The position numbers and the translations under genes are program-made. DNA of 21,017 nucleotides from a virus, in IMG/VR virus record IMGVR_UViG_3300005511_000097, positions 1-21,017 of that record. One strand, given 5' to 3'. The notes beneath the pieces are model-generated. The model was not told the DNA's origin. It worked only from the letters and a program-made list of their open reading frames with translations, and did no database searches. Of this stretch, positions 1 to 15,773 are shown one piece after another. Every line of letters starts with the position of its first letter. Within the stretch, counting starts at the first letter, position 1.

Positions 1-385
1 CGAATTCCTTGGCCTCGCCTTCGTTGAAATAGAAACCCTCGCTGCCGCCCTTAACCGCGCCAATGACGGGCAAATCGCGCTGACTCTGGGCACCACCCAA
101 CGTGCTGGGGCGAGGCGTTACTGGTTCGCGCCGGTGTGTCACGGTTTGGCCCTGTTCGATGCCGGCAAGCTGCAATACGCCGCCGGGCTCGGTACCATGC
201 TGGCTGAACAGCGCGTCAAGCTCGCGGGCGAGTTCGAAGGGCAGGAACCGCCGCTTGTAGCGATCCTCGTAATGCTGATAGCGCGTGAGGCTCCAGCCCA
301 GCGCTTCCGATACGGAGCGCATGGTGAGGCCGGCCTGTTCGCGCAATTCCTTCAGCCGCCGGGCGGCCTCCGAGATTTCGGTCAT
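1..385 (-). CDS. Prophage CI/LexA-like repressor (HTH + S24 domain), 3' part outside window
   Basis: Reading leftward from the ATG at 385-383, an open frame runs off the left edge after 128 residues. A perfect AAGGAG ribosome site (complement of 392-397) sits just upstream and fixes the start. Residues about 7-62 look like an XRE-type helix-turn-helix (LKELREQAGLTMRSVSEALG, then a WSLTRYQHYE recognition region). A polar linker follows. The segment RDLPVIGAVKGGSEG at 103-117 matches the beginning of the S24 (LexA/CI) peptidase domain. Such proteins bind operators as dimers and hold the prophage silent. Here the gene faces away from the phage genes across a 196-bp region with operator-like sites, the usual lysogeny-switch arrangement. 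The dipeptide aligned with the LexA Ala-Gly cleavage site appears to be Gly-Gly (113-114). The catalytic Ser and Lys lie beyond the edge and cannot be checked. Confidence 0.85.
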   Translation of the reverse strand, partial: MTEISEAARRLKELREQAGLTMRSVSEALGWSLTRYQHYEDRYKRRFLPFELARELDALFSQHGTEPGGVLQLAGIEQGQTVTHRREPVTPRPSTLGGAQSQRDLPVIGAVKGGSEGFYFNEGEAKEF

Positions 386-458
386 TGGAAACTCCTTATC
401 GACCATTCAGCTGTCGGGCGCGAACGAAGCGCGCACCGGCGGGTCGACCCATCACGGC

Positions 459-487
459 AATATATGTACGAATAATACGTTTTTAAA
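459..487 (-). promoter_or_regulatory. Possible leftward promoter of the repressor gene
   Basis: On the minus strand a TATATT -10 (459-464) lies 17 nt from a weak TTTAAA -35 (482-487). The operator-like site at 467-480 falls in the spacer, which would permit autoregulation. The -35 match is poor, so this is a tentative call. Confidence 0.35.
467..480. promoter_or_regulatory. Probable repressor operator, leftward site
   Basis: Read on the minus strand the site is ACGTATTATTCGTA. It shares the core CGTATTAT followed by CG with the palindrome at 508-525. It has short ACG/CGT arms. The two sites lie between the divergent repressor and early genes, as expected for paired phage operators. Assignment to this repressor is inference. 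Confidence 0.5.
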
Positions 488-489
488 GC

Positions 490-519
490 TTGACGGCGTA
501 ACCAAAATATGCGTATTAT
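490..519 (+). promoter_or_regulatory. Rightward early promoter
   Basis: TTGACG at 490-495 and TATTAT at 514-519 are separated by 18 nt, a good sigma-70-type match. Transcription would start near 526 and read into the gene at 582. The -10 hexamer is the exact centre of the palindrome at 508-525, so a bound repressor would block polymerase. Confidence 0.65.
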
Positions 520-525
520 CGCATA
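508..525. promoter_or_regulatory. Probable repressor operator over the rightward -10 box
   Basis: Perfect inverted repeat of six bases, TATGCG and CGCATA, around a six-base centre TATTAT that is also the -10 box of the rightward promoter. A related site lies at 467-480. Confidence 0.65.
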
Positions 526-581
526 ATCCTAGTACGCGCAAAGCCTGTCAGCGGCCACCTCGGCCGATTGGGGAGGAAATA

Positions 582-773
582 ATGGAACAAAACAGAAACA
601 AAAATCAGCCGGCGATCTGGGTGAGCATGCGGCGGTGCCTCAATTGCGGCGGCAGTTTCGTCGCGCTCAGCCCCTATCTGCGGGTCTGCGATCTCTGCAA
701 GGAGGGTGAGGAATGGCAGAGCGGCAACAGCGACATCGTCGGCCACCAACCCAAGGCCGCCAATGACAATTGA
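582..773 (+). CDS. Small Cys4 zinc-ribbon-like phage protein
   Basis: A 63-residue protein with the strong ribosome site GGGAGGAAAT at 571-580. The same frame is open further upstream, but that stretch crosses the operator and promoter, so the ATG at 582 is preferred. Residues about 16-40 contain two pairs, CLNC and CDLC, spaced about 18 residues apart, consistent with a small zinc ribbon. The C-terminus KAANDN resembles the AANDN tail seen in many small alphaproteobacterial proteins. It is the first gene after the rightward promoter, where a Cro-like or other early regulator would be expected, but no HTH is visible. DNA binding is possible but not shown. The family was not identified. Confidence 0.8.
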   Translation: MEQNRNKNQPAIWVSMRRCLNCGGSFVALSPYLRVCDLCKEGEEWQSGNSDIVGHQPKAANDN

Positions 774-798
774 TCCCCGAGAAGAAGGAGTGAATGCC

Positions 799-1026
799 AT
801 GGCCGAGATCGTCGATTTTCCGCCGAGCCCTACGATGCGTCCGGAACAGGCCGTCGGTACCTGCCTCAAGACCAGATGGTCGCAGTTCCTGGGCATCGGC
901 ATCACCGAGGCGGGCGAGTTCGAGGTGGTCAACAGCGACATGACCGCCGAGCGTGCGCTGTGGCTGGTGAAGTGGGCCGAGCGCTGGGCGATGGGGCTCG
1001 ACGAAGTGGAGGAGATCGAGGGATGA
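799..1026 (+). CDS. Hypothetical early phage protein
   Basis: A 75-residue acidic protein. GAAGGAG at 784-790, eight bases before the ATG at 799, decides the start. An in-frame ATG at 763, overlapping the end of the previous gene, would add 12 residues but has no ribosome site as good. The C-terminal half (ERALWLVKWAERWAMGLDE) reads as one amphipathic helix rich in Trp. No catalytic motif, membrane segment or known family is evident. The gene overlaps the next by ATGA at 1023-1026, suggesting translational coupling in one early operon. Confidence 0.7.
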   Translation: MAEIVDFPPSPTMRPEQAVGTCLKTRWSQFLGIGITEAGEFEVVNSDMTAERALWLVKWAERWAMGLDEVEEIEG

Positions 1027-1580
1027 GAGCTTTCGTCACGACGAAGCGCGGCAGGCCGCGCCGGGAAGAGGCCGCCAACGACAACACGCCAGATCGCGGT
1101 ACCGCGGAATTGCAGATGAAGCGTGCCGTCCTGGCGCAAGGTGCGGCAGCGGAATCGGCGACACATCCACTTGACCTGCTATTGGCACATGGCCTGATCG
1201 ACGCGGCAGAAAGCCGCGCTGGCCGGCATTATGCGGCGCTGTATCGCCGCGTCATCGGTCGCACGGAAATGAGCTATGGCCGGCTCTATGCGGGGCTTGC
1301 CGGTGAAAGCCGAGGGCGATCGACGGATGTCGCGCGCGATCCCGTTGAGGACGAAGCCGATCTTGCAATCGCGCAAGCCTTGTTTCGCATGGCACAAACA
1401 GCCTTGCGCAGCGAAGGCGCGGTGGTCGCCGGCATCACCGAACGCCTCGCCGTGTTCGGCGCCTTTCCGGATTGGCTGCTGGCGATGGATGCGACCGCCC
1501 TGCGCGAGCGCAGCCATTTGCGCCGGGGGCTGCAGCAGCTGGCGTATGTTTTTCAAAGCAGCAAAGGGAGATGTGCATGA
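1023..1580 (+). CDS. Hypothetical phage protein upstream of the packaging genes
   Basis: A 185-residue protein starting at an ATG that overlaps the previous stop (ATGA), preceded by a GGAGGAGA-like stretch at 1009-1022. The N-terminus is basic (TKRGRPRREEAANDN), suggestive of an AT-hook-like or nucleic-acid-contacting tail. Residues about 50-85 (HPLDLLLAHGLIDAAESRAG, then RHYAALYRRVIG) resemble proteins found just before terminase genes in alphaproteobacterial prophages. The rest is predicted helical, and no enzyme motif was recognised. Small terminase function is possible from position and the basic tail, but the next gene is an equal candidate. Confidence 0.7.
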   Translation: MRAFVTTKRGRPRREEAANDNTPDRGTAELQMKRAVLAQGAAAESATHPLDLLLAHGLIDAAESRAGRHYAALYRRVIGRTEMSYGRLYAGLAGESRGRSTDVARDPVEDEADLAIAQALFRMAQTALRSEGAVVAGITERLAVFGAFPDWLLAMDATALRERSHLRRGLQQLAYVFQSSKGRCA

Positions 1581-1813
1581 CCAAGGCAAGTGCGTTGCCG
1601 GTCGATCAGCTCGAGACCCTCGCCCGCCGGCACGCCAAGCGTGCGCTCGCGGCCCTCGCAGAGGTGATCGACAACGAGGAGGCGACACCGGCGACACGGA
1701 TCTCGGCAGCGACGGCGATCCTGCAATGGGGCTATGGGCGCCCCGGCGGCAAGCCGAAGCCGGGAGAGGCCGGCGAACAGCTCATTCGCCTCACCTGGGG
1801 CAATGATACATGA
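1577..1813 (+). CDS. Small helical phage protein, candidate small terminase component
   Basis: A 78-residue protein coupled to the previous gene by ATGA. The GGGAG at 1566-1570 is six bases before the ATG at 1577 and directly abuts an earlier ATG at 1571, so 1577 is chosen. The central region (ALAALAEVIDNEEATPATRI, then SAATAILQWGYGRPGGKP) matches the pattern of small phage proteins with helical repeats encoded next to large terminases: two helices with TPATR between them, ending in a GYGRP turn. This suggests a role in DNA packaging or recognition, but it lacks a full HTH and is short for a small terminase. Function is inferred mainly from position. Confidence 0.7.
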   Translation: MTKASALPVDQLETLARRHAKRALAALAEVIDNEEATPATRISAATAILQWGYGRPGGKPKPGEAGEQLIRLTWGNDT

Positions 1814-1828
1814 AGGGCAAAAAAGAGC

Positions 1829-1857
1829 TTGACGATCTAGGAATATTTTGCTAGTAT
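1829..1857 (+). promoter_or_regulatory. Promoter upstream of the terminase gene
   Basis: TTGACG at 1829-1834, a 17-nt spacer and TAGTAT at 1852-1857 give a strong sigma-70-like match in the gap between the early genes and terL. An inverted repeat TTTGC/GCAAA (1847-1862) is centred on the -10 box, echoing the layout at the early promoter. The start would be near 1864, just before a terminator. Confidence 0.6.
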
Positions 1858-1880
1858 GCAAATATAGACTGCGAAACAGC

Positions 1881-1924
1881 GCCCCGGTGAGCCGCCAAGG
1901 CTTAGCGGGGCGTTTTCATTTTCC
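1881..1924 (+). terminator. Intrinsic terminator between promoter and terL
   Basis: The arms GCCCCGGTGAGCC (1881-1893) and GGCTTAGCGGGGC (1899-1911) pair at 12 of 13 positions, counting one G-U and one mismatch, around a GCCAA loop. GTTTTCATTTT follows. It sits only about 20 nt after the predicted start of the promoter at 1829. Confidence 0.75.
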
Positions 1925-1958
1925 GCTCCTTCCTCACCGGCAGAAAGCAGCAGGCGCA

Positions 1959-3260
1959 ATGGCCAAGGCAATGCAACGTCAGGCAGCCAAACCGAGGCCG
2001 CTTGACGTGCATCTCTATGCGCCGCGTCCACATCAATCGGCCCTGCATCGCACTTTGAAACGTTTCAACGTGCTGGTGGCGCATCGGCGTTTCGGCAAGA
2101 CGGTTTTCTGCATCAACGAACTCATCGCCAAGGCGGCGGCGAATACGAGCAAGGACGCGCGCTATGGCTATGTAGCGCCACTGCTCACCCAGGCTAAGGA
2201 TATCGCCTGGGCTTATCTCAAGCGCTTCACGGCGCCGATCCCAGGCATTGAGATCAGCGAAACGGAATTGTGGGTGCAGCTGCCCAACGGCGCGCGCATC
2301 CGTCTTTACGGTGCGGACAATGCCGATCGCCTGCGTGGCCTCTATTTCGACGGAATCGTGCTCGACGAATATGCGCAGATGAGCCCGCGCGTGTGGCCAG
2401 AGATCATCCGACCGATGCTAGCCGATAGACAGGGCTGGGCGCTCTTCATCGGCACGCCGATGGGGCGCAATCATTTCTGCATGCTTTACGAACAGGCGAT
2501 GAGCGATTCCGACTGGTTGGCCAAGCGCTTTCCAGCGAGCGAGACCGGCATTCTCCGTGAAACGGAACTCGCGGCAGCCAAGCGCACCATGTCGACCCAG
2601 GCTTTCGCGCAAGAGTTCGAATGCAGCTTTGCCGCCGGCGTGCCGGGAGCTTATTACGCGACGTTGCTCGAGCAGGCCGAACAGGACGGCCGTATCGGTC
2701 GGGTCCCCTGGGAGCCGCGTCTGCCTGTGACGACGGCCTGGGATCTCGGCATCGGTGATGCGACGGCCATCTGGTTTGCGCAAGTACTGGGGCAGGAAAT
2801 CCGCATCATCGACTATTACGAGGCGAGCGGAGCAGCGCTGGCACATTATGCCAAACAGCTCGGCGACAAGCCCTATGTCTATCACGATCATCTGCTGCCC
2901 CATGACGTATCGGTGCGCGAGTTATCCACCGGCCAGACGCGACTCGATACTTTGCGCAGCCTCGGACTCAAAGTTCGTGTCCTCACCGCCGATTCGGTCG
3001 AGGATGGCATCGAGGCGGTACGAAACCTGATCCCGCGCTGCTGGATCGATGCGCAAAAATGCACGCGGGGGCTGGATGCGTTGCGGCTTTATCGGCCCGA
3101 ATTCGATACGCGGCGCGAAACTTTCAGTGTGCGGCCGATCCATGACTGGACATCCCACGCCGCCGATGCCTTTCGCTATCTGGCGCGGGGATTGAAGCGG
3201 CCGGTGCAGCCCATATCGCAACAACGCGCTCTTGGCGATTACAGCCCGTTCACCTGGTAG
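1959..3260 (+). CDS. Terminase large subunit (packaging ATPase/nuclease)
   Basis: A 433-residue protein that would pump phage DNA into the procapsid and cut it. The ATPase half shows a Walker A motif AHRRFGKT at 41-48, Walker B IVLDE at 133-137 and a coupling motif FIGTP at 163-167. The C-terminal half has an RNase H-like nuclease signature beginning with AWDLGIGD (D261) and ending with the conserved segment HDWTSHAADAFRY near residue 405. Length and motif order fit terminase_6-type large subunits. The start is not marked by a strong ribosome site. The frame is open upstream to 1848, but that stretch crosses the terminator, so the ATG at 1959 is preferred. The gene leads the structural operon and ends one base into a possible GTG start of the next. 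Confidence 0.95.
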   Translation: MAKAMQRQAAKPRPLDVHLYAPRPHQSALHRTLKRFNVLVAHRRFGKTVFCINELIAKAAANTSKDARYGYVAPLLTQAKDIAWAYLKRFTAPIPGIEISETELWVQLPNGARIRLYGADNADRLRGLYFDGIVLDEYAQMSPRVWPEIIRPMLADRQGWALFIGTPMGRNHFCMLYEQAMSDSDWLAKRFPASETGILRETELAAAKRTMSTQAFAQEFECSFAAGVPGAYYATLLEQAEQDGRIGRVPWEPRLPVTTAWDLGIGDATAIWFAQVLGQEIRIIDYYEASGAALAHYAKQLGDKPYVYHDHLLPHDVSVRELSTGQTRLDTLRSLGLKVRVLTADSVEDGIEAVRNLIPRCWIDAQKCTRGLDALRLYRPEFDTRRETFSVRPIHDWTSHAADAFRYLARGLKRPVQPISQQRALGDYSPFTW

Positions 3261-3265
3261 TGGAC

Positions 3266-3778
3266 ATGAATATACGGAAGCTCTCGCGCGATGATCTCTT
3301 CGACATCGCGACGGCGATGCGGGCAGCCGATCGACGTGAAATATTCGCGACCCGCTTTGACGAAGATGCGGGCTCGCTGGTCGATGATCTCATCGCTGGC
3401 GATCCCATAGGCGCGGTGATCGCCGCTGGTGATGGTGCAGCTGTTGCAGCCATCGGCGGCACGGAAATGTGGCCGGGCCTCTGGTCGCTGTGGATGTTCG
3501 CAACGGATCGCTGGCCGGAAGTGGCGCGCATTGGAACACGCTTTGCGAAGATGGAATTGTGGCCGGCGTTGCTGGCCCTGGGACTGCGGCGCGGCGAATG
3601 CCGGTCAGCAGCCGAACATGGAATCGCGCATCGCTGGATCCGCCACCTCGGCGGTGTTCAGGAATCCATCCATCCCGCTTTCGGAAAAGGCGGAGAGACC
3701 TTTATCGGCTTTGTCATTTATGGAGAGACAGAAAATGTGCGCCACCCCGAAACGCCGGCCGCGGAACCCCACGGGTAG
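3266..3778 (+). CDS. T7 gp13-like protein with GNAT-like fold (DUF2833 type)
   Basis: A 170-residue protein. Its N-terminus (IRKLSRDDLFDIATAMRAAD, then RREIFA) and later IGGTEMWPGLWSLWMFATD and RWIRHLGGV segments match the pattern of the T7 gp13/DUF2833 family, which has an acetyltransferase-like fold. In T7, gp13 is a head-assembly or internal virion factor. Catalysis by this protein is not established, and the acetyl-CoA-binding loop is not clearly conserved. A GTG at 3260, overlapping the terL stop, would add two residues. Neither start has a strong ribosome site. The 3' end overlaps the next gene by 44 nt in another frame. Confidence 0.75.
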   Translation: MNIRKLSRDDLFDIATAMRAADRREIFATRFDEDAGSLVDDLIAGDPIGAVIAAGDGAAVAAIGGTEMWPGLWSLWMFATDRWPEVARIGTRFAKMELWPALLALGLRRGECRSAAEHGIAHRWIRHLGGVQESIHPAFGKGGETFIGFVIYGETENVRHPETPAAEPHG

Positions 3779-3962
3779 CGGCAGCCGCACCCACAGCAAC
3801 AACGCCGCGCCGGCAGCGAACGATACCGTTGCCGATACTGCCGCGGAAACGGAGCTTCGTCGCCTGCGCTCGCTCTATGGACGCCGTGCCACGATCCTGA
3901 CGCCGGAACGCTCGGCTTTAGGGCAGGCGCCGACGGCGCAGAAAAATCTGCTGGGCTCCTAG
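3735..3962 (+). CDS. Small conserved phage protein before the portal
   Basis: A 75-residue protein starting inside the previous gene, with GGAG at 3722-3725 upstream of its ATG. It begins MCATPKRRPRNP, has a low-complexity Ala/Asn/Thr middle, and ends with GRRATILTPERSALGQ followed by QKNLLGS. Small proteins with an MC.TPKRP start and an ILT...TLLG end are commonly encoded next to podovirus portals. Their role is unknown; a head or portal-associated peptide is plausible. The protein looks mostly disordered, with no membrane segment. Confidence 0.75.
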   Translation: MCATPKRRPRNPTGSGSRTHSNNAAPAANDTVADTAAETELRRLRSLYGRRATILTPERSALGQAPTAQKNLLGS

Positions 3963-3978
3963 GCGGGTAAGGATCCTC

Positions 3979-5592
3979 ATGGACAATATCGCCGACGACC
4001 TCATTCGCCGCCAGGAAGCTCTGGCCGGTGAACGCGCAACGCTTGATACGCTGTGGCAGGAGATCGCCGAACTGATGAAGCCGTTGCGCGCTGATTTCAC
4101 TTTTCAGCGCGTGCCGGGCGACAAGCGAACGCAGAAGATCTTTGACGCGACGGCGGGCCTCGCTGCCGACAATCTGGCTGCCGGGCTCTGGGGCATGATC
4201 ACCAATGCCGCCAACGACTGGTTCACGCTGCGCTCGGATCTTCCGGAAAGCGAGGAGACGCAGGAGACCAAGGAGTGGTTGGATGATGTGACGCGGCGCA
4301 TGCAGGGTTCCTTCGCTGCCAACGGCCAGCGATTCTATGCCCGCGTCATGGAACTCTATGCCGATCTCGTCACCTTCGGCACTGGGATTTTCTATTCCGA
4401 GGAGGATGCGGCAACGGGGCGTGTGCACTATTCCTGCCGGCATCTAGCCGAATGCTTCATCGCCGAGAACGAACGCGACGAGGTCGATACCGTCTTCCGT
4501 CGCTTCAGCTTCACGGCGCGACAGGCACATAAGCGTTGGGGCGACAAATGCCATGCGAGCCTGTTGCGCGCCTTAGAGAAGGAGCCGGATCGCCGTTTCA
4601 CTTTCCTCCATGCGGTCATGCCGCGGGAAGATGTGGCGCGAGACCGGTTTGATCCGGCCGGGATGGCGTTCGCGTCATTCTATCTCGATGTCGAGAACCG
4701 GCTGCTGCTCTCGGAAGGGGGTTATCACGACTTCCCCTATCAGGTGCCGCGCTGGTCGACGGCATCACGTGGGCTCTATGGCGACAGTCCGGCGATGTTG
4801 GCTTTGCCGGACGTAAAGATGCTCAATGCCATGTCGAAGACCACCATCGTCGCGGCACAAAAGGCGGTGGATCCCCCGCTGCTGGCTGTCGATGAGGTCG
4901 CCGTCCGGGGCCTGCGCACGCATCCCGGCGGCATCATCTATGGCGGTCTCGATGAGAATGGCCGCCGGCGCTACGAACCGCTGCACAGCGGCGGCAATGT
5001 GGGGTTGGGGCTGGAACTGGAGGAGCAGCGCCGCGAAGCCGTGCGCCAGGCATTCCATTTCTCGCTGCTGATGATGGTGCAGCAGCCCAATCAGACGGCC
5101 ACTGAAGTGCTGGCGCGGCAAGAAGAGAAGCTGCGCCTGATGGGGCCGCATCTGGGTCGCATCCAGGCGGAATTTCTCGACCCACTCATCCGTCGTCAGT
5201 TCGGCATCATGCGGCGCGCCAACCTGCTGCCGACACCGCCCAAGCAGTTGCGGCAAGGCGGTATCCGGATCGAATATGTTTCGCCATTGGCCCGCGCACA
5301 GCGTGCGGGAGAAGGTGCTGCAATTGTGCGAGCGTTGGAATCGCTGGCACCGCTCGGCGCCATCAAGCCGGAGATCTACGACAATATCGATGCCGACGCC
5401 GCGGCACGGCTGCTGGCGCAATCCTTCGGTGTTCCCAACAATCTGCTGCGCACGCCGACCGCTGTGAAGAAGTTGCGGAAGGACGCTGAGAAGGCGGAAG
5501 GCGCTGGTGCTGCCAGCGCGGGTGCGCTGCCGGCCGGTATGGAGGGCCTCGGCGATCTCGGTGCCATGCTCTCAGGCGGCGGTGGTCAATGA
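3979..5592 (+). CDS. Portal / head-to-tail connector protein (T7 gp8-like)
   Basis: A 537-residue protein, the usual size for T7-type connectors. It would form the ring at the DNA-entry vertex, bind terminase during packaging and later anchor the tail. The N-terminus carries typical features: a helical start with LWQEIAELMKPLR, then KRTQKIFDATAGLAADNLAA, and NAANDWFTL. Further on are LVTFGTGIFY and RWSTASRGLYGDSPAMLALPD, followed by a long helical region (LLMMVQQPNQTATEVLARQE) of the kind found in connector stems. The C-terminal 40 residues are Ala/Gly rich. AAGGAT at 3969-3974 precedes the ATG. The stop overlaps the next gene by ATGA. Confidence 0.93.
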   Translation: MDNIADDLIRRQEALAGERATLDTLWQEIAELMKPLRADFTFQRVPGDKRTQKIFDATAGLAADNLAAGLWGMITNAANDWFTLRSDLPESEETQETKEWLDDVTRRMQGSFAANGQRFYARVMELYADLVTFGTGIFYSEEDAATGRVHYSCRHLAECFIAENERDEVDTVFRRFSFTARQAHKRWGDKCHASLLRALEKEPDRRFTFLHAVMPREDVARDRFDPAGMAFASFYLDVENRLLLSEGGYHDFPYQVPRWSTASRGLYGDSPAMLALPDVKMLNAMSKTTIVAAQKAVDPPLLAVDEVAVRGLRTHPGGIIYGGLDENGRRRYEPLHSGGNVGLGLELEEQRREAVRQAFHFSLLMMVQQPNQTATEVLARQEEKLRLMGPHLGRIQAEFLDPLIRRQFGIMRRANLLPTPPKQLRQGGIRIEYVSPLARAQRAGEGAAIVRALESLAPLGAIKPEIYDNIDADAAARLLAQSFGVPNNLLRTPTAVKKLRKDAEKAEGAGAASAGALPAGMEGLGDLGAMLSGGGGQ

Positions 5593-5879
5593 AGGCCGGT
5601 GTGACCTGGTTACTGCGCCTCCACGGCAGGGCGCGGGCGCGGCGGGTTGCGGATGCCTATCGCCGGCAACTAGCGGCAGATGACGGGTTGGGTCGGCTGA
5701 TCCTCTCCGATCTCGCGCATTATTGCCGGGCCGGGCAAAGCAGTTTCGTGGCCGGAGACCCGCATCAGACGGCCTTCAACGAGGGCGCTCGCGACGTTTT
5801 TCTGCATATCGCGGAAATGTGCGGCGTGACGCCACAGGATTTTACCGAGCTTCTTGAAGAGGTGATCGATGATCGATGA
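5589..5879 (+). CDS. Bbp19-like small phage protein
   Basis: A 96-residue protein starting in the ATGA overlap with the portal gene. The segment LILSDLAHYCRAGQSSFVAG, then DPHQTAFNEGARDVFLHIAE and a C-terminal LTP-like VTPQDFTELLEE, matches the Bbp19 domain of Bordetella phage BPP-1 and relatives, encoded between portal and scaffold genes. The N-terminus is basic. Function is unknown, and its position suggests a head-assembly role. Its last 11 bases overlap the start of the scaffold gene. Confidence 0.8.
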   Translation: MKAGVTWLLRLHGRARARRVADAYRRQLAADDGLGRLILSDLAHYCRAGQSSFVAGDPHQTAFNEGARDVFLHIAEMCGVTPQDFTELLEEVIDDR

Positions 5880-6654
5880 GAAGACGCAGCCCGAACGCAA
5901 AGAGGATGCCGGTTGGCGCGCGGGGCTGGAGGAGGATCTTTCAGAACTGGTGCAGCAGAAGGGCTGGCGCTCGGCCAAGGATGTGCTGACCTCCTATCGC
6001 AGCCTTGAGAAGATGTTGGGCGGCGATCGCTTGGCTCTGCCCGGCAAGGATGCCGGACCGGAAGCCTGGGCACCGGTCTGGGAAAAGCTCGGACGTCCGG
6101 CTGACGCCACGGGCTATGCGCTGAGCGCCCCGGACGGCGCGGATTATGATGGCCCGACCGCAGAATGGTTTCGCGACGTCGCTTTCGAACTGGGGCTTAC
6201 GCAGATTCAGGCCCAAAGGCTGCATGATTCATTTCTGGAGCGTTTCGGGGATGCAGCGGCGTCGCAGGCGCCACAGGAAGACGAACCGGATCTCAAAGCG
6301 CTCTGGGGGCGGCAATATGATCGCAACATGGCGGCGGCACGACGGGCCTATGGCAACTTCGTCGGCGATGAGGCGCGTTTCAATGAAATCGCCGACGGCA
6401 TGGGTACCGAGGCATTGCTTGATCTTCTCGCCAAAGTGGGTCGCGCCACGGGCGAGGACAGCATGACGGGACGAGCCGAGGCCAGAACCGGCGGTCCACG
6501 CTCGGCCGCCGAAGCGATGAGCGAGATCGGGCGGCTGCAGGCAGCGGCGAAGGCTGATGCCAAGCACCCCTACACCAACAAGACACATCCCGATCATGCG
6601 GCAACAGTGAAGCGGATGGAGGATCTGTTCGCCTTGGCCTATGGGAAAAATTAG
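5869..6654 (+). CDS. Capsid assembly scaffolding protein
   Basis: A 261-residue, acidic, largely helical protein between the portal and capsid genes, where podoviruses encode their scaffold. Residues 65-96 contain the recurrent pattern AWAPVWEKLGRPADATGYAL. Residues about 98-196 form a helical domain (WFRDVAFELGL; ALWGRQYDRNMAAARRAY). The C-terminal 50 residues carry AAAKADAKHPYTNKTHPDHA, like the capsid-binding tail of such proteins. Scaffolds guide coat assembly and leave before maturation. The domain at 98-196 recurs in the protein at 12087-12599, which is unusual. The start overlaps the previous gene by 11 nt, and GAAGAGGTGA just upstream serves as ribosome site. Confidence 0.8.
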   Translation: MIDEKTQPERKEDAGWRAGLEEDLSELVQQKGWRSAKDVLTSYRSLEKMLGGDRLALPGKDAGPEAWAPVWEKLGRPADATGYALSAPDGADYDGPTAEWFRDVAFELGLTQIQAQRLHDSFLERFGDAAASQAPQEDEPDLKALWGRQYDRNMAAARRAYGNFVGDEARFNEIADGMGTEALLDLLAKVGRATGEDSMTGRAEARTGGPRSAAEAMSEIGRLQAAAKADAKHPYTNKTHPDHAATVKRMEDLFALAYGKN

Positions 6655-6726
6655 CATTCCCGGGACTTGCATATCAGGCTGTTTGTGGCAGTCTCCGGCG
6701 CCGTTCACGTTCCGGGGTTCCTTAGG

Positions 6727-7089
6727 ATGAGATCATTTCGCTGGCTGCCGCTCGTCGCCGTCCTTCTGGCCGGCTGCGTCAACATCGATACCAGCTTCCT
6801 TCCCAAGACCAATTCGATCGTGGTTGATCACGTCGAGTTCGGGCCCAAGACCTGGGCGGCCTACCAGCAATATCTGGCGGCGATTACGCCGGACGGACAT
6901 GGCGTCTTTGCCGTTGCCAGGGACGGGCGGGGCGGCGAGTCCTGGATCTGCAAGACCGCCGGCTGTACCGATGACGGCCAGTTTGCCGCGAAGGCCGTGG
7001 CGCGCTGCCAGGCCAACAACCGCGGCCATACTTGCGTCGTTTTCGATATCGACCGCGTGCCGCAGATCAAGTTCACGCCGCCAAGCTAA
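6727..7089 (+). CDS. Predicted lipoprotein, probable prophage cargo (moron)
   Basis: A 120-residue protein with a classical lipoprotein signal: MRSFRWLPLVAVLLAGC, with the lipidated Cys at 17. Val at +2 suggests export to the outer membrane. The mature part has four more cysteines (ICKTAGC; RCQANNRGHTC) that could form two disulfides, with the pattern FAAKAVARC. The family was not identified. It lies between scaffold and capsid genes, has a 72-nt gap before it and its own terminator after it, and encodes no virion-like feature, so it is probably a moron altering the lysogen's envelope. The frame is open upstream to a TTG at 6667, but the signal peptide begins at the ATG at 6727. The ribosome site is weak. 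Confidence 0.75.
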   Translation: MRSFRWLPLVAVLLAGCVNIDTSFLPKTNSIVVDHVEFGPKTWAAYQQYLAAITPDGHGVFAVARDGRGGESWICKTAGCTDDGQFAAKAVARCQANNRGHTCVVFDIDRVPQIKFTPPS

Positions 7090-7115
7090 GTCGGCGTCAA
7101 ACGACAGACGTGAGT

Positions 7116-7141
7116 AACCCCGCTTCGGCGGGGTTTTCTTT
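7116..7141 (+). terminator. Intrinsic terminator after the lipoprotein gene
   Basis: Stem AACCCCGC/GCGGGGTT (7116-7135) with a TTCG tetraloop, followed by TTCTTTT. It would end transcription before the capsid gene unless read through. Confidence 0.85.
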
Positions 7142-7374
7142 TGCGCGATATTTTCAAAGCCCGGAGAACCGTGCGTTTCGCGGCCCGGCTGACGGCTCGG
7201 AAAGACGGCCGCCGACGGCGCGCGCCCTGCGCCGAGAGGTCTTGATTGGTTGGTCCGCGGATCGCGGGCCGCCCCGCCAACTCCGCGATGCGCGGCTGGT
7301 TGGGGTATCCGACGAGGCAACCTCATCGATCAAAGCAGTCACTTCCGACAACAGACAGAAGGAGTCGTGGACCC
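7142..7374 (+). promoter_or_regulatory. Capsid gene leader with a large hairpin; no clear promoter
   Basis: The 233 nt before the capsid gene hold a 13-base inverted repeat, CCGCGGATCGCGG (7255-7267) and CCGCGATGCGCGG (7283-7295), pairing at 12 of 13 positions around a 15-nt loop. The rest is very GC-rich, including a GGCGC/GCGCC repeat near 7218-7233. No convincing -35/-10 pair was found even though a terminator lies just upstream. An AGAAGGAG ribosome site at 7357-7364 serves the capsid gene. Confidence 0.5.
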
Positions 7375-8235
7375 ATGTCCTCGCAGATCCAGGTTGCTTT
7401 CAACAACCTCTACAGTGCCAACATCATGCTGCTGGTGCAGCAGAAGGGCAGCCGCCTCAAAGAAGCGGTGCGCCAGGAAGTGGTCGAAGGCGAAATCGCC
7501 TATTTCGACCAGATCGGTGCCGGCAGCGCAGTGAAGCGTCAGTCGCGTCATGCCGACACGCCGCTCACCGAAACGCCGCATGCCCGGCGCCAAGTGATGC
7601 TGGAAGACTACGAATACTCGGACCTTATCGATCGTCTCGACCAGGTGAAGACGCTGACCGATCCGACCAGCGCCTATAGCCAAGCCGCGGCGCATGCGCT
7701 GGGTCGCGCCATGGACGATGTGATCATCGCCAATGCCAACGGCACGGCGCGTACCGGCAAGACCGGGCAGACCAGCGTCGGTCTGCCGTCGGGACAGAAG
7801 ATCGCCGTCGGTGCGGCCGGGCTCACACTTGCCAAGCTGCTGCAGGCCAAGGAGATCCTGGATGCCGCCGAGAACGATCCTGACGAGCCGCGCTTCATCG
7901 CCTGTCCGGCGAAGGACATCACCGTTCTCCTCTCCAACACCCAGGTGACGTCGAGCGATTACAACACGGTGAAGGCCCTGGCGGCCGGTCAGATCGACAC
8001 CTTCCTCGGCTTCAAGTTCATCCGCACGCAGCGTCTGGGTACCACCAGCGGCGGCGATCGCGCCTGTCTTGCCTGGCGCCAGTCGGCACTGCTGCTCGCC
8101 ATTGCGCAGACCCCGAAAGTGAAGGTGACCGAGCGACCGGACAAATCCTACGCCACGCAGGTTTATTGCGCGATGTCGGTCGGTGCCACGCGCATGGAAG
8201 AAGAAGGCGTCGTCGAGATCGCGACGCTTGCTTGA
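7375..8235 (+). CDS. Major capsid protein
   Basis: A 286-residue protein forming the icosahedral shell. The segment LLVQQKGSRLKEAVRQEVVE, then QSRHADTPLTETPHARRQVM and LEDYEYSDLIDRLDQVKTLT, is characteristic of the phage capsid family found in T7-like and BPP-1-like podoviruses with an HK97-type fold. The glycine-rich loop NGTARTGKTGQTSVGLPSG lies at about residues 122-140. The ATG at 7375 follows AGAAGGAG by 10 nt. A longer in-frame reading from 7246 crosses the leader hairpin and is rejected. The gene is followed directly by a perfect 16-bp hairpin and then the cement gene. Its own leader and flanking terminators suggest separately set expression. Confidence 0.9.
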   Translation: MSSQIQVAFNNLYSANIMLLVQQKGSRLKEAVRQEVVEGEIAYFDQIGAGSAVKRQSRHADTPLTETPHARRQVMLEDYEYSDLIDRLDQVKTLTDPTSAYSQAAAHALGRAMDDVIIANANGTARTGKTGQTSVGLPSGQKIAVGAAGLTLAKLLQAKEILDAAENDPDEPRFIACPAKDITVLLSNTQVTSSDYNTVKALAAGQIDTFLGFKFIRTQRLGTTSGGDRACLAWRQSALLLAIAQTPKVKVTERPDKSYATQVYCAMSVGATRMEEEGVVEIATLA

Positions 8236-8238
8236 TTT

Positions 8239-8283
8239 TTGGCGCGCGCAACTGCCGCCCGCCAACCCAGTTGCGCGCGCCAA
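8239..8283 (+). promoter_or_regulatory. Perfect 16-bp hairpin between capsid and cement genes
   Basis: The arms TTGGCGCGCGCAACTG (8239-8254) and CAGTTGCGCGCGCCAA (8268-8283) pair without mismatch around a 13-nt loop. It begins three bases after the capsid stop codon. No T-run follows, so it is less likely a terminator than an mRNA stability or processing element. Confidence 0.7.
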
Positions 8284-8315
8284 GTCGCAGACTGAAATCA
8301 GATAGGAGAAAATCT

Positions 8316-8741
8316 ATGGCTACTCAGTATGGCACCCAGATGGGTCGCCTGCGCAACACGTTGCCTGTGGATCTGCCGATGGCCGGCGATATCCATGGCC
8401 GCGTGCGCGTTTTCAACGAGAAGGTTGTGCTCGCCGCGCAGCCGACCACCGACATCGTGGAGGCGGCTCGTCTGCCCAAGGGCGCACGCGTGCTCTATGG
8501 CATCGTCAACAGCACTGTTTCCCTCGGCTCGTCGACGCTTGCCATCGGCATCGCCGGCAACACCGGCAAATACCGCGCCGGCGCCGTCTTTACCGCCATC
8601 GACACCCCGACATTGTTCGCGCCAGCGGCGGTCGCCGGTGAAGCACTGACGGCCGAGGAGATCGTCATCCTCACCATCGGTGCGGCGGCCCTGCCGGCCA
8701 GCGGCACGCTGCGCGTGATGCTGTTCTACACGCTTGATTGA
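8316..8741 (+). CDS. Probable capsid cement/decoration protein
   Basis: A 141-residue protein with AGGAG at 8304-8308 upstream of the ATG. It is rich in small and beta-favouring residues, with a jelly-roll-like or barrel-like alternation (VRVFNEKVVLAAQPTTDIVE; GIVNSTVSLGSSTLAIGIAG; TLRVMLFYTLD). It contains no Cys or membrane segment. In related podoviruses the gene after the capsid gene encodes a head decoration protein such as Bbp16, and position, size and composition fit this. Direct similarity to Bbp16 was not evident by eye, so the assignment is positional. A terminator follows immediately. Confidence 0.65.
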   Translation: MATQYGTQMGRLRNTLPVDLPMAGDIHGRVRVFNEKVVLAAQPTTDIVEAARLPKGARVLYGIVNSTVSLGSSTLAIGIAGNTGKYRAGAVFTAIDTPTLFAPAAVAGEALTAEEIVILTIGAAALPASGTLRVMLFYTLD

Positions 8742-8748
8742 TGATTGC

Positions 8749-8788
8749 CGGAGCTTGCTGCCGTTTGGCAGCGAGCTCCGCTTTTTTC
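8749..8788 (+). terminator. Strong intrinsic terminator after the capsid/cement cassette
   Basis: The arms CGGAGCTTGCTGCC (8749-8762) and GGCAGCGAGCTCCG (8767-8780) pair over 14 positions with a single G-U, around a GTTT loop. CTTTTTT follows. The ribosome site of the next gene lies just past the T-run. Confidence 0.92.
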
Positions 8789-8804
8789 CGGAGCATGCGA
8801 CCCC

Positions 8805-9380
8805 ATGGCGATATCGACCGTTTCCATCTGCAATCGCGCACTCGACCTTCTCGGCGCCGATCCCATAACCTCGCTGGAAGATGGATCGAAGGCGGCCAAT
8901 TTGTGCCAGCGCAATTTCGACCCGTCGGCGGATTCGGTTTTGCGGCTTTATCCCTGGAACGCGGCATTGCGACGCGCGCGCCTGCCGGCGCTGGCGGAGT
9001 TGCCGGCCTGGGGCTATCGCTATCAATACCAACTGCCGCAAGGGCCGGAGCCGGCTCTGTGCCTCCGCCTGCTGGATGTCGATAACGGCACGGATTTTCG
9101 CGTCGAGGGGCGCCGAATTCTTGCCGATTATGATGCCCCGCTCGACATCCTCTATATCGGCCGAATCATCGACAGCGCCAATTACGACCCGCTTCTGGCC
9201 GAAGCGATCGCTGCAAAGCTTGCCGTGCATCTCGCCGGCAATCTCACGGAAAGTGGTTCACGCATTGAAGCAGCCCGCGACTATCTGCGCACGATCCTTG
9301 CCGAAGCAAAGGCGATCGATGCGCAAGAGGGCGGCACCGCCGATCTGATCGTCGATGCCTGGCTGGCGGCGCGGAGCTGA
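8805..9380 (+). CDS. Tail tubular protein A (T7 gp11-like)
   Basis: A 191-residue protein. The start AISTVSICNRALDLLGADPI, then SLEDGSKAANLCQRNFDPSA and LRLYPWNAALRRA, is the typical signature of the gp11 tail-tube/adaptor family. These proteins form the ring joining the portal to the nozzle. Length is normal for the family (about 190-200). The C-terminal part is helical (YDPLLAEAIAAKLAVHLAGN; RDYLRTILAEAKAID). CGGAG at 8789-8793 lies 11 nt before the ATG. The gene starts just beyond the terminator, so its transcription needs read-through or a promoter not recognised here. It is followed after five bases by the gp12-like gene. Confidence 0.9.
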   Translation: MAISTVSICNRALDLLGADPITSLEDGSKAANLCQRNFDPSADSVLRLYPWNAALRRARLPALAELPAWGYRYQYQLPQGPEPALCLRLLDVDNGTDFRVEGRRILADYDAPLDILYIGRIIDSANYDPLLAEAIAAKLAVHLAGNLTESGSRIEAARDYLRTILAEAKAIDAQEGGTADLIVDAWLAARS

Positions 9381-9385
9381 CGCCC

Positions 9386-11656
9386 ATGTCCCGTGCCTCG
9401 CTCCTGCTCTCGACCTTCAATGCCGGGGAATGGTCGCCGGAACTCTATGGCCGGATCGATCTCGACAAGTACCGCAATGCCTGCCGCCGCATCGAGAATT
9501 TCGTTTTGCTGGCGCAAGGCCCGGCGACAAGGCGACCGGGTACGCAATACATCGCATCGACAAAGGATGATGGTGTCGTGCGCCTGGTGCCATTCGAGTT
9601 CTCGACGGAACAGGCCTATATCATCGAAGCGGGCGCTGGCTATTTCCGCTTCTATATGAACGGCGGGCGTATCGAGACGACCCCAGGTGTTCCCTACGAG
9701 ATCGCGACGCCTTACGGCGTGAGCGATCTCGCCGGTCTGAAATGGGCGCAGTCTGCCGACGTGCTCTATCTGGTTCACCCGCAATTTCCGCCCTACAAGC
9801 TGGCACGCAGTGGTCACACGAACTGGTCGTTGGGTCAGATCGATTTCTCCGACGGGCCCTATATCGACGAGAATGTCGGCCCTATCATGTTGACACCCGG
9901 TGCCGCCAGCGGAACCAATGTAACGCTGACGGCGTCGGCAAATCTGTTCGTTGCCGGAGATGTGGGCCGCCTCGTCCGCATCAAGCACGCCAGCACTTGG
10001 GGCTGGGGCAAGATCACCGCCTTCATCAATCCCACCCAGGTCAAGATCGACATCAGAAGCGCCTTTGGCGGTGCGACGGCGGTCACCAGCTGGCGGCTTG
10101 GGGCCTGGTCGACGGGAACCGGTTGGCCCAGCACCGTGACGTTTCACGAAGAGCGACTGTTCCTCGCCAACACCAAGTTGCAGCCGCAGACGCTTTGGGC
10201 ATCGGTGTCCGGTGCCTATGAGAGCTTTGCACCGAGTGCCGCGGATGGTGTCACCAAGGACGATCACGCGCTCAACTTCACCATAGCCGACGACCGGGTC
10301 AATGCCATCCGATGGATGAGTGCCGGCAAGTCACTGGCGCTGGGGACGACGGGTGGCGAGTTCAATCTCACCGCAAGCTCGCTCAATGAGGCATTGACAC
10401 CGATCAACGTCACGGTGCGACGCGAGACGACCAATGGCAGTGCCGATATCCGGCCGGAGCGGATCGGTGCCGCGGTGCTCTATGTGCAGCGCGCAGGGCG
10501 CAAGGTCTATGAAATGGCCTATAGCTTCGAGAATGATGCTTTCAATTCACCGGAACTCAGTCTGCTGGCTCGGCATCTGACGCTAAAGGGGATCAAGGAG
10601 ATCGCCTATCAGGCCGAACCCTGGTCGGTGATCTGGGCAGTGCGCCGCGACGGAGCGTTGCTGGGTCTTACCTATATGCGCGGGCAGGACGTGGTTGGGT
10701 GGCATCAGCATCGTATCGCCGGTACGGCCACCAAAGTGCATTCGGTCGCGTGCATTCCAGGCAACGCCCAGGACGAAGCATGGCTCGCCGTCGAGCGTAT
10801 CGTGAACGGCGTCGTGCGCCGTTCGGTTGAGCGCATGGCACCAGCTTTCGAGCCGGAAGACGCCTTCGACAAGAAGGGCGCTTTCTTCGTTGATGGCGGA
10901 CTGACTTTCAACGGTGCTGGCACGACCATTCTGACGCCGGACGCTGCGGCCATGATCGTCGGCAGCAACAGCGTGCCCTTTGCTACTTCGGCGCCCACTT
11001 TTGCCGGCGGGGATGTCGGTCGGGAGATCCAGTATTCCTATCCGGCACCTGGCGGTGAGGGATATCACGTGGCGCGAGCGCGCATCACGGGGTTTGCCGA
11101 CGCCAGCCTTGTGACGGTATCCATCCTGGCACCTTTCCCGAGTGCTGCACCCATTGCCGCCGGGGCCTGGTCGCTGGGGGCGACGTCAATCCAGGGCCTG
11201 GGTCATCTGGCCGGCGAAACGGTGACGATCCTCGCTGATGGGGCGACGCATCCGCCCCGCGTGGTGGCGCCCGACGGCAGCGTCAACCTGGAACGGCCGA
11301 CGGCTTTTGCTCATGTCGGCCTCGGCTATACCAGCCGGCTCAGCACCATGGATATCGAGGCGGGTGCGCTGGATGGCAGCGCGCAAGGAAAGAGCCGCCG
11401 CATTCACCGGGTCATTGTTCGCCTCAACAACAGCCTTGGCATGCGCGTGGGTGCCACGGAGCTGGGCAGCGAGGATGTGGTCTTTCGTGCCGCGCGTACG
11501 GCGATGGATCAAAGTCCGCCGCTCTTTACGGGCGACAAGGTGGTGGCCTTCCCCAAAGGCTGGGCCACTGAGGCCGTGGTGACGGTCCTGCAGGAGCAGC
11601 CGCTCCCTTGCACGATTGTCGCTCTGATCCCGCAGCTTACAACGATGGATGGGTGA
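9386..11656 (+). CDS. Tail tubular protein B / nozzle protein (T7 gp12-like)
   Basis: A 756-residue protein, similar in length to T7 gp12 (about 794). The N-terminus LLLSTFNAGEWSPELYGRID, then LDKYRNACRRIENFVLLAQG and RRPGTQYIAS, is the standard opening of this family in podoviruses. Typical later segments include FEFSTEQAYIIEAGAGYFRF, a TFHEERLFLANTKLQPQTLW region and SRRIHRVIVRLNNSLGMRVG near the C-terminus. It would form the tail nozzle through which DNA leaves. GGAG at 9373-9376 overlaps the end of the previous gene and precedes the ATG by nine bases. Codon use matches its neighbours. Confidence 0.9.
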   Translation: MSRASLLLSTFNAGEWSPELYGRIDLDKYRNACRRIENFVLLAQGPATRRPGTQYIASTKDDGVVRLVPFEFSTEQAYIIEAGAGYFRFYMNGGRIETTPGVPYEIATPYGVSDLAGLKWAQSADVLYLVHPQFPPYKLARSGHTNWSLGQIDFSDGPYIDENVGPIMLTPGAASGTNVTLTASANLFVAGDVGRLVRIKHASTWGWGKITAFINPTQVKIDIRSAFGGATAVTSWRLGAWSTGTGWPSTVTFHEERLFLANTKLQPQTLWASVSGAYESFAPSAADGVTKDDHALNFTIADDRVNAIRWMSAGKSLALGTTGGEFNLTASSLNEALTPINVTVRRETTNGSADIRPERIGAAVLYVQRAGRKVYEMAYSFENDAFNSPELSLLARHLTLKGIKEIAYQAEPWSVIWAVRRDGALLGLTYMRGQDVVGWHQHRIAGTATKVHSVACIPGNAQDEAWLAVERIVNGVVRRSVERMAPAFEPEDAFDKKGAFFVDGGLTFNGAGTTILTPDAAAMIVGSNSVPFATSAPTFAGGDVGREIQYSYPAPGGEGYHVARARITGFADASLVTVSILAPFPSAAPIAAGAWSLGATSIQGLGHLAGETVTILADGATHPPRVVAPDGSVNLERPTAFAHVGLGYTSRLSTMDIEAGALDGSAQGKSRRIHRVIVRLNNSLGMRVGATELGSEDVVFRAARTAMDQSPPLFTGDKVVAFPKGWATEAVVTVLQEQPLPCTIVALIPQLTTMDG

Positions 11657-11657
11657 G

Positions 11658-12074
11658 ATGTGCAGTACAGCAGCCGCCATGGCGGCAACGATGATCGTTT
11701 CCAGCACCGCCAAGATGGCGTCCGATGCGCAGCAGGCTCGCCATGATTCACGCGAGCTTGAGCGCGAAGCCAAGGTCGCTCGGGCCCAAGGCGCCGAGCA
11801 AGAGCGCAAGTTGCGCGCCGAGCAAGCGCGTGACCAGGCCAAGCGCCGCGTTGCGGTGCTGAAAGGCGGCGTCACCACCGAAGGCTCACCCACCGATATG
11901 ATGTTGGACGCAGCCCGAGAAGATGATGTCGAGGCGCGCTGGGCGCGGTTCGGCCAGACCGAGGCAGCGCGCGCAAAGGAACGCGACGCCCGCAATCGCC
12001 GGCGTCAATCCGTGCTCGACCATCTTTCCGGGACCAGCAGTCTCGGCACCAATCTCATCAGTCTGAGATCTTGA
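11658..12074 (+). CDS. Internal virion core protein (T7 gp14-like)
   Basis: A 138-residue protein. The N-terminus (MCSTAAAMAATMIVSSTAKM) is a short hydrophobic segment preceded by MC, followed by a long charged helix (about residues 30-75, rich in Glu, Arg, Ala and Gln) and the conserved patch GVTTEGSPTDMMLDAAREDD. Small proteins of this plan encoded after the gp12 gene match the gp14-type core or ejection proteins of podoviruses, which pass into the host membrane during infection. An ATG at 11649 would add three residues; 11658 has GGGTGAG closer to ideal spacing. No signal peptidase site is evident. Confidence 0.7.
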   Translation: MCSTAAAMAATMIVSSTAKMASDAQQARHDSRELEREAKVARAQGAEQERKLRAEQARDQAKRRVAVLKGGVTTEGSPTDMMLDAAREDDVEARWARFGQTEAARAKERDARNRRRQSVLDHLSGTSSLGTNLISLRS

Positions 12075-12086
12075 AAGGACAACGTG

Positions 12087-12599
12087 ATGACGACAGCAAA
12101 GGACTTGGAGACCGCCATGCAGGAAGCGTTGGCTGCTCGCGGATTGCGGCCCGCAGCGGGTGCGCAGCAGGTGTCATCGGCACCACAAAGTGATTCTCGA
12201 GGTGCCTTGGCAGCACCTGCCGCGCCGGAGCACTACCAGATCGCGGTGCCACCTGAATTTGAACGAGATGCCGCCCTAGAGGGGAAGGCGCGGCAATGGT
12301 TCCATCGTGCCGGGCTGCCGCAAGGGGCGGTCAACGGTATCGTCGATGCCTATTGTCGTCAGCTTTGCGGTGATCCCGCGGCTACTGAAGCACCGCAGGC
12401 GGAGGCCGAGCTGATGCGGGAGTGGGGAGCCGATTATCCACGCAAGATCGCTGCCGCCCAGTCGCTCATCGCCAAATGCGGCGGCGCCGAGGAACTGGCG
12501 GAGATTTTCGGTAGCACGGGTCTCGGCAATGACGCATGGCTCATCCGCACATTAGCGGCGATCGCGGAGATGGATCCGCAGACCGGAGCTGTGCGATGA
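12087..12599 (+). CDS. Scaffold-like paralogue in the tail/core region, unknown role
   Basis: A 170-residue protein. AAAGGA at 12074-12079 favours the ATG at 12087 over a GTG at 12084. The first 48 residues are low complexity. Residues about 49-162 align by eye with residues 82-196 of the scaffold encoded at 5869: shared elements are a Y...(V/A)P stretch, WF, GL(P/T)Q, (V/H)D(A/S)(Y/F), GDxAA, APQ, W-G-x-x-Y, AAA and LLA-like helices. Homologous domains in two genes of one phage suggest duplication. In this position the product might be a second assembly chaperone or a core component. No large gp15-like gene is present. Function is unknown. It overlaps the next gene by ATGA. Confidence 0.7.
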   Translation: MTTAKDLETAMQEALAARGLRPAAGAQQVSSAPQSDSRGALAAPAAPEHYQIAVPPEFERDAALEGKARQWFHRAGLPQGAVNGIVDAYCRQLCGDPAATEAPQAEAELMREWGADYPRKIAAAQSLIAKCGGAEELAEIFGSTGLGNDAWLIRTLAAIAEMDPQTGAVR

Positions 12600-13237
12600 G
12601 CAGCGCGGCAGCCGAGAAGGTGACGGGCGCGGTGCCGGCGAATCTTGCAGGATGGCGCGCTTGTGCCGCGGGTCTTTGCGCGAAGCAGGCGGAACAGGCG
12701 GCAGAGCGGACAGATCTTGCGACGCGTCGACAGATGCTGGCACTCGCGGCGGCGACCGGCGACAGTCGTGCACAGAAGCGCATTGAGCAGCTGGCCATGC
12801 GCGAGCAAGCGCTGGATATCAGTGCCGCCAATGTGGCGCAGGCCCTGGAGCGCGCTGAGCGGGAAATCGCTGCTGCGGAGGCGGCGTTAATAGCAGAAGA
12901 CAGGGTCGCAGCCTTGGAGCTTCATGCTCAGCGCCTCACCGCGCGGTTGGCCTTGGTGGCAGCGATTGAGCAGCGCCTTCAAGAGCTGACACCGCTGCTG
13001 GCATCACTTGGTATCGCCACGCGTGAATTGACACAGAGTCACCTTGCTCTCGGCGGTGCGTCGGCGTCATTGCCGCCTTTGGCGACTGAAGCCGTCGGCG
13101 GGCGCCTCGCCGAGTTCATGACGGGTATCGGTTTTGCCGATTGGTTGCCATTGGCACGGCCTGAGATTCGTCCGGCTTTAGCGTCATGGCTGGAAGCCGA
13201 AACCACGGCGCAGGGAAATTACATTATCGCTGGCTAG
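12596..13237 (+). CDS. Coiled-coil phage protein, possible core/ejection component
   Basis: A 213-residue protein starting in the ATGA overlap, with GGAG at 12584-12587 upstream. Residues about 25-140 are almost all Ala, Glu, Gln, Arg and Leu with heptad-like spacing (QKRIEQLAMREQALDI; ALERAEREIAAAEAALIAED), consistent with a long coiled coil. The C-terminal 70 residues are more globular (RLAEFMTGIGFADWLPLARP), and the chain ends at EAETTAQGNYIIAG. It lies between the gp14-like protein and the fibre, where T7 has gp15 and gp16, but is far smaller and has no transglycosylase motif. The family was not recognised. Confidence 0.7.
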   Translation: MSSAAAEKVTGAVPANLAGWRACAAGLCAKQAEQAAERTDLATRRQMLALAAATGDSRAQKRIEQLAMREQALDISAANVAQALERAEREIAAAEAALIAEDRVAALELHAQRLTARLALVAAIEQRLQELTPLLASLGIATRELTQSHLALGGASASLPPLATEAVGGRLAEFMTGIGFADWLPLARPEIRPALASWLEAETTAQGNYIIAG

Positions 13238-13261
13238 ACGCGCAGGCCGAGAGGATAGGAC

Positions 13262-14761: not shown

Positions 14762-14763
14762 TG

Positions 14764-15285: not shown

Positions 15286-15293
15286 GGTGTGTG

Positions 15294-15500
15294 ATGGGCG
15301 GATTGCATGAGACGTCCCAAGCGATTGGCCGGTTACAGGCGAGTGTCGAAAAGTTGGAACATGCCGTCGCACGTCTGAGCGAGCGCATTGAAGAATTGCA
15401 GCGGTTGCGCTGGCTGATGGTGGGAGCGTTGGTGGTGCTTTGCGGCATTTCCGGTGCCAGCAGCGGCTGGTTCGCCAAACTATTGGAAGTTGGCGCGTGA
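15294..15500 (+). CDS. Small coiled-coil membrane protein, lysis-cluster candidate
   Basis: A 68-residue protein. GGTGAGG at 15281-15287 supports the ATG at 15294 over earlier in-frame starts. Residues about 5-40 have heptad-like spacing (RLQASVEKLEHAVARLSERI), followed by one membrane segment at about 44-61 (WLMVGALVVLCGISGASSGW). The plan, a coiled coil then one membrane helix, is common in small phage proteins of the DUF1515 kind encoded near holins. It could be an accessory lysis protein or an inner-membrane spanin, though its C-terminal tail is too short for a typical spanin. Function is uncertain. Confidence 0.65.
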   Translation: MGGLHETSQAIGRLQASVEKLEHAVARLSERIEELQRLRWLMVGALVVLCGISGASSGWFAKLLEVGA

Positions 15501-15526
15501 AATAGAGTGACGAACGGAGGGTGACG

Positions 15527-15772: not shown

Positions 15773-15773
15773 C

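Follow-up and report, generated by a model that had tools for sequence, protein, structure and literature searches.

A probable antitermination gate ahead of terL in a podovirus-type element of Dongia and near relatives

In the DNA analysed here, an IMG/VR record of 21,017 bases that we refer to as the window, positions 1829-1924 hold a promoter (P2) followed directly by an intrinsic terminator, in front of the terminase gene terL. Judging from the sequence, this segment is probably a late-gene gate of the Q, AlpA and GafZ kind, at which the product of the upstream gene g1023 would load as a GafZ/Q21-like antiterminator. We read it as a late gate because all three cis-acting parts of such a system are present: an element in the promoter spacer (predicted binding), a -10-like sequence (predicted pausing) and a terminator before the controlled genes. 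The reading draws on features seen directly, namely the conservation and register of promoter, box, -10-like sequence and hairpin, the covariation in the stem, the position of g1023 adjoining the gate, and a profile link between g1023 and the DUF6456 family.

Promoter, spacer box and hairpin

P2 consists of a -35 hexamer TTGACG (1829-1834) and a -10 hexamer TAGTAT (1852-1857) on the plus strand, with a 17-nt spacer, nine of 12 hexamer matches, a TG preceding the -10 and a +1 near 1864. Since promoters of similar score occur at 1.3 sites per 5 kb in shuffled sequences, P2 by itself is not improbable. Its spacer contains the box TAGGAATATTTTGCTA (TAGGA-N6-TGCTA, 1838-1853, plus strand), a dyad at a fixed distance, 8 nt ahead of the -10, which is presumed to be the antiterminator loading site. 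A conserved -10-like sequence, TAGACT, occupies +2 to +7 (1865-1870, plus strand) within the stretch AAATATAGACTGCGA and is presumed to act as a sigma-dependent pause element. The terminator (1879-1924, plus strand) has a core stem of 1879-1886 paired with 1906-1913, after which the U-tract TTTTCATTTTC continues as a U-rich tail to 1924. The predicted fold of -31.6 kcal/mol (z -4.8) was not equalled in stability by any of 200 shuffles. The hairpin was absent from the output of a simple terminator scan, and no conserved alternative fold was seen. Both the promoter (TTGACG, 17 nt, TAGTAT) and the strong intrinsic terminator of the original prediction are borne out, the first by the sequence and its recurrence in relatives, the second with a claimed span of 1881-1917 that is close to the computed core of 1879-1913.

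The first gene behind the gate, terL (1959-3260, plus strand; Terminase_6N, E 1.1e-5; PHROG 2, E 1e-34), most likely has its start codon at ATG 1959; the mechanically called reading frame begins at TTG 1848, inside P2. Two further symmetries present in the window, a palindrome centred on the -10 (TTTGC-TAGTAT-GCAAA) and a longer AGTCTA/TAGACT dyad, were dropped because they are not kept in relatives.

These relatives were found via terL in viral contigs and genomes, and their hosts are Dongia and near relatives. In 13 aligned elements, the promoter and the hairpin lie in the same place ahead of terL. Ten of the 13 share the spacer TAGGAAT-N3-TTGC and the RNA start AAATRTAGACTG, with a -10 that varies within TANNNT. 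Over 10 sequences, 11 of the 17 spacer positions and 11 of the 13 positions of the initial transcribed region are invariant, compared with 19% of the fourfold sites of terL across eight sequences from this clade. The corresponding binomial values (6e-5 for the spacer and 8e-7 for the downstream part) are guides only, as the sequences are related. Compensatory changes were found at three stem pairs, and the outer stem pairs covary in L003 and L087. Because the promoter and hairpin recur in 13 relatives with conserved positions and compensatory stem changes, we regard the arrangement as being beyond chance. An alignment upstream of terL and a search for covariation in the stem had been proposed together with the prediction, which was to be abandoned if relatives conserved neither promoter nor hairpin; they conserve both.

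Other elements are less complete. L007 and L048 keep the promoter, RNA start and hairpin and have lost the spacer box, L013 keeps the promoter, GGAA in register and the hairpin, and L008 has neither the box nor a clear terminator. When 87 terL loci were scanned for a promoter plus a terminator, only 10 gates emerged, nine of the Dongia type and that of L013, because gates positioned behind g1023 fall outside the scanned stretch. In one Dongia genome (G007, L104), a HIT-family-like gene appears to adjoin the gate on its upstream side, and after it comes another small hairpin, GGTCCGCCTTCGCGGACC.

The candidate antiterminator and its homologues

Gene g1023 (1023-1580, plus strand) encodes a protein of 185 aa and is separated from the gate by a gene for a small-terminase-like protein (1577-1813, plus strand; PHROG 641, terminase small subunit, E 0.0023; phrog_15261, E 5e-5). 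It has no match in Pfam, PHROG or NCBIfam models and no relatives among 50,697 phage records. No member of the g1023 family (profile A2) matched the Pfam model of DUF6456 (PF20057) above the cut-off, and the family is therefore not filed as a member. In profile-profile comparison, hhalign scored a narrower g1023 profile of 19 sequences against DUF6456 at 65.6%, and the family of 36 sequences at 95.9% with a score of 57.0 over 123 colinear columns. The controls, a reversed profile (score 17.1), the highest-scoring of 40 column shuffles (16.2) and terL (17.3), all remained at 1% or less. By profile comparison, the g1023 family is thus a remote homologue of DUF6456, with a similarity that spans the whole domain. 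DUF6456, the C-terminal domain of GafZ and GafA, is the annotation given to GafA (PMC9638019, PMC9765227). In five of eight loci checked, judged by eye, a DUF6456 gene follows a short DnaA-domain-IV-like (gafY-like) gene, as gafZ follows gafY.

The AlphaFold model of g1023 has a pLDDT of 74, with a core above 90. The best three rows of a VIA-align comparison were all Q21 (Z 6.7, 6.4 and 6.1; 97 residues), although a Z of 6-7 is ordinary for helical proteins, and the rows that follow are mostly sigma region 4 domains. The VIA-align list covers only chains ranked by Foldseek, so that folds absent from it mean nothing, and Foldseek itself returned no significant match for the model. Among PDB sequences, profile A2 found no match up to E 10, hence there is no sequence similarity to Q21. 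A sigma-like HTH has been reported in GafZ and GafA (PMC11150451, PMC9638019), and Q21 resembles sigma region 4 (PMC6606751). With sigma region 4 domains also frequent among the rows for the g1023 model, these observations fit together. From these comparisons, g1023 is likely the loader at P2, though g799 or g582 of the same operon could be the factor instead.

More distant g1023 homologues occur in 17 of 385 sampled alphaproteobacterial genomes. Outside Dongia, nine of the 23 regions behind homologues contain a terminator; among 200 random slices, 17 do (P 0.0003). Five loci (L010, L089, L009, L011 and L098) have no such element between the small-terminase gene and terL; in these, the g1023 homologue overlaps at its end with a promoter of the form TTGACA-N4-TAGGAA-N8-(-10). 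A terminator directly follows this promoter in all but L098, where there is none. In L318 and L319, the gate lies just behind g1023 and contains a perfect dyad, TAGGA-N6-TCCTA. A gate with a terminator that either overlaps the 3' end of the homologue or comes immediately after it is consequently seen in L010, L089, L009, L011, L318 and L319. In these and in L098, TAGGA again precedes the -10 by exactly 14 nt; the box keeps its spacing from the -10, and the interval between -35 and box differs by one. Of 16 gates, 13 carry the -10-like sequence (T/A-A-N3-T, beginning at -1, +1 or +2), where shuffling gives 2.8 on average. In the five loci with the overlapping promoter, the box overlaps coding sequence, though its codons are AT-rich. 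A prophage of another type (L310) has a g1023-like gene, a terminator, a small gene, a Terminase_6C terL and a Phage_portal gene in that order, and in L047, L028 and L111 a g1023 homologue is present with no gate behind it. Scanning viral contigs for the box pattern gave at least 120 stretches, most of which are likely due to chance; the motif was checked on fetched loci only.

The left end of the element, in the order acuI, repressor, g799, g1023, is also found in other genera (L089, L098, L144, L147, L149), and the head and tail genes of the window were mostly not found in the loci read (L089, G009, G019, G020). It looks as if this end were an old fixed locus with exchanged late genes.

Proposed mode of action and competing explanations

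The window opens with the N-terminal part of a repressor gene (2-406, minus strand; HTH and Peptidase_S24, CI/LexA-like), which is cut by the window end so that the HTH lies within it; a full-length homologue (L139) matches Peptidase_S24 at E 2.6e-13. Repressor sequences share 87-100% identity within the Dongia clade, and the gene is divergent from the early operon. The early promoter P1 (490-519, plus strand; TTGACG, 18 nt, TATTAT) has a palindrome, TATGCG-TATTAT-CGCATA, on its -10, is strongly conserved in 12 relatives and is presumed to be the target of the repressor. In the intergenic region around it (440-545), 70 bases hardly vary among 12 relatives, and there are repeated GCGTA-like half-sites, which are likely operators of the S24 repressor. 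P1 has neither the TAGGAA box nor the other motifs of P2, and because the box is missing we take P1 to be regulated differently from P2. The first gene of the early operon, g582 (582-773, plus strand), encodes a small CxxC...CxxC protein. The next, g799 (799-1026, plus strand), encodes a 75-aa protein that is the best conserved of the early operon (87-100% across the Dongia clade, above terL and g1023); conservation this high probably points to a very conserved partner. No family was found for g799, and its predicted model is poor, with no confident fold.

In the gate that we propose, P2 would fire unaided and the polymerase would halt at the hairpin after about 55 nt, leaving an RNA that is a by-product only. 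Early transcripts from P1 would meet the same hairpin, which would gate both promoters in this way; as the hairpin would also end P1 transcripts, the head and tail genes would stay off until the loader is made. Once the S24-type repressor releases P1, the early operon, including g1023, would be expressed. The GafZ/Q21-like g1023 protein would then bind the TAGGA-N6-TNCTA dyad in the P2 spacer and engage the polymerase that sigma holds back at the -10-like TAGACT. The polymerase would become resistant to the hairpin and transcribe terL and the head and tail genes, so that the gate would probably be an on/off switch for the production of virus-like particles. In this scheme we infer that g1023 is the loader and binds the box, that the box recruits and does not repress, that polymerase does read through, and that P1 is where the repressor acts.

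Several other uses of the same segment were weighed. The 55-nt RNA could itself be a stand-alone small regulatory RNA that base-pairs via its conserved 5' end. The 5' stretch AAATATAGACTGCGA is indeed conserved and single-stranded in the predicted fold, and a promoter with a terminator makes a complete short gene, much as 6S and other Rfam small RNAs are short RNAs made from a promoter of their own. However, the RNA has no Rfam match at gathering thresholds, and the untranscribed promoter spacer, for which a small RNA has no need, ranks with the best conserved parts and persists in relatives with a different RNA sequence (L010, L089, L009). Furthermore, the RNA has no complement longer than 9 nt in the element, the same as for shuffled seeds, and the one of 11 nt in G011 is not shared. 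We therefore consider a small RNA quite improbable. Operators in promoter spacers are common, and the dyad might be one for the S24 or another repressor at P2, with the hairpin as a plain terminator of the early operon. The GTA repressor RogA binds GGAA-N4-TTCC (PMC9632790), which resembles the GGAA-N4-TTGC found here, and AlpR sets a precedent by repressing both the alpA and alpB promoters (PMC7969949, PMC9371919). Yet P1, the expected target of the repressor, has other conserved motifs and no box, for which reason an operator shared by P1 and P2 was rejected; a repressed promoter needs no terminator ahead of its genes, and the conserved -10-like sequence would be left unexplained. A repressor site in the P2 spacer is hence unlikely.

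It is very improbable that the segment is an ordinary overlap of the early-operon terminator with a weak or decayed promoter, without regulated readthrough and with the late genes served by another promoter. The loss of the box in L007 and L048 and the relatives without any gate would fit such a history, but the conservation is far above that of fourfold sites and the same architecture recurs in other element types. The original prediction had suggested a late-gene gate in need of antitermination (by analogy with lambda Q), a small regulatory RNA, or an attenuator. It is the gate that is supported, by the register of the dyad, the -10-like sequence, the terminator, the GafZ-related gene upstream and the Q21-like model. 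The small RNA gained nothing, given the lack of unusual complementarity and the conserved spacer, and an attenuator of the leader-peptide or ligand type is likewise without support, in view of the Rfam result and with no conserved alternative fold seen.

Known systems and the nature of the element

In lambda, the Q gene lies before pR', and the terminator is much farther from the promoter than the hairpin is here. Q proteins use a spacer element and a -10-like sequence in the first transcribed bases, after which terminators are passed (PMC6606751). The Q21 and lambda Q systems (pR'-tR') share with the gate the spacer element, the -10-like sequence in the initial transcribed region, the terminator, an antiterminator gene (here a candidate) directly upstream and late packaging genes downstream (PMC6606751). 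Q21 also heads the VIA-align rows for the g1023 model, but there is no similarity in sequence and the box is a dyad, not a direct repeat of TGAGCA. AlpA of Pseudomonas aeruginosa requires a spacer element and a -10-like sequence (at -1 to +5), and at one of its targets the terminator lies 26 bp after the promoter (PMC7969949, PMC9371919). It resembles our system in these parts, in the closeness of the terminator and in the S24-type repressor above, and differs in the protein, in the site (GGGACG) and in controlling lysis genes.

GafZ is an antiterminator with a near-palindromic site between the -35 and -10 (PMC11150451). The GafYZ system of the Caulobacter gene transfer agent (GTA; Tran and Le 2024, PMC11150451) is alphaproteobacterial, too, and has a DUF6456-family factor (here a remote homologue and a candidate), a terminator before most structural genes, and a repressor above an activator with one target promoter. 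Here, by contrast, no GafY or IHF site was identified, the -35 is near consensus, the terminator lies at +15 to +60 and not after the first gene, the candidate gene is inside the element directly before its target, and the structural genes are of podovirus type. The GafZ authors found no similarity to known antiterminators; if our reading is true, g1023 offers a link between GafZ and Q21, and late-gene antitermination of the Q kind would be an old strategy of alphaproteobacterial phages that was inherited by gene transfer agents. The candidate gate is compact, conserved and directly testable, lies outside the lambdoid phages, and would be operated by a protein that no family library names.

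The element itself (2-16369 of the window; L139/L140, L141/L143, L155 and L152/L153) may be a podovirus-type gene transfer agent, the plain alternative being an old prophage. Directly behind terL, a GNAT-like-looking gene (3260-3778; 58-79% identity in relatives) is followed by the presumed late operon (3979-16369, plus strand), which by PHROG matches and the gene list comprises portal, scaffold, capsid, tail, fibre and small membrane or lipoprotein genes; the portal, or head-tail connector, matches Head-tail_con at E 8e-133. No integrase or replication genes were recognised in the element, either by reading the gene list or in Pfam and PHROG searches, and a cluster of structural genes without them is one mark of a GTA. 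Another is a fixed chromosomal site with descent alongside the host, which is found as well. In G011 and in the type strain of Dongia mobilis (G004), acuI lies to the left of the element and cysD-cysNC to its right, and one or both flanks agree also in the window, G005, G007 and G013; in the window, host cysD, cysNC and a peptidase gene lie to the right of the tail and fibre genes. It is the lack of a recognisable integrase together with one chromosomal site in several Dongia genomes that makes the element a GTA candidate. The identities of host and element genes fall together (in G011, G007 and G004, 95.5, 88.0 and 73.8% for M23 and 87, 79 and 71% for terL), which suggests that the element descends with its host. 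These results suggest that bacteria of soil and water may carry a new gene transfer agent. A wider proposal, which we make tentatively and would sooner doubt than assert, is that g1023 founds a phage antiterminator family joining GafZ and Q21 by descent and that its gate controls a new podovirus-derived, vertically inherited GTA of the Dongiaceae.

One genome, G013 (L152, L153), has an internally deleted, degenerate copy of the element, in which the promoter, the hairpin and most structural genes, and with them the gate, are gone and the flanks are intact. In this copy, g1023 runs on into terL near residue 94, and a second junction, near residue 257 of terL, leads into the fibre gene.
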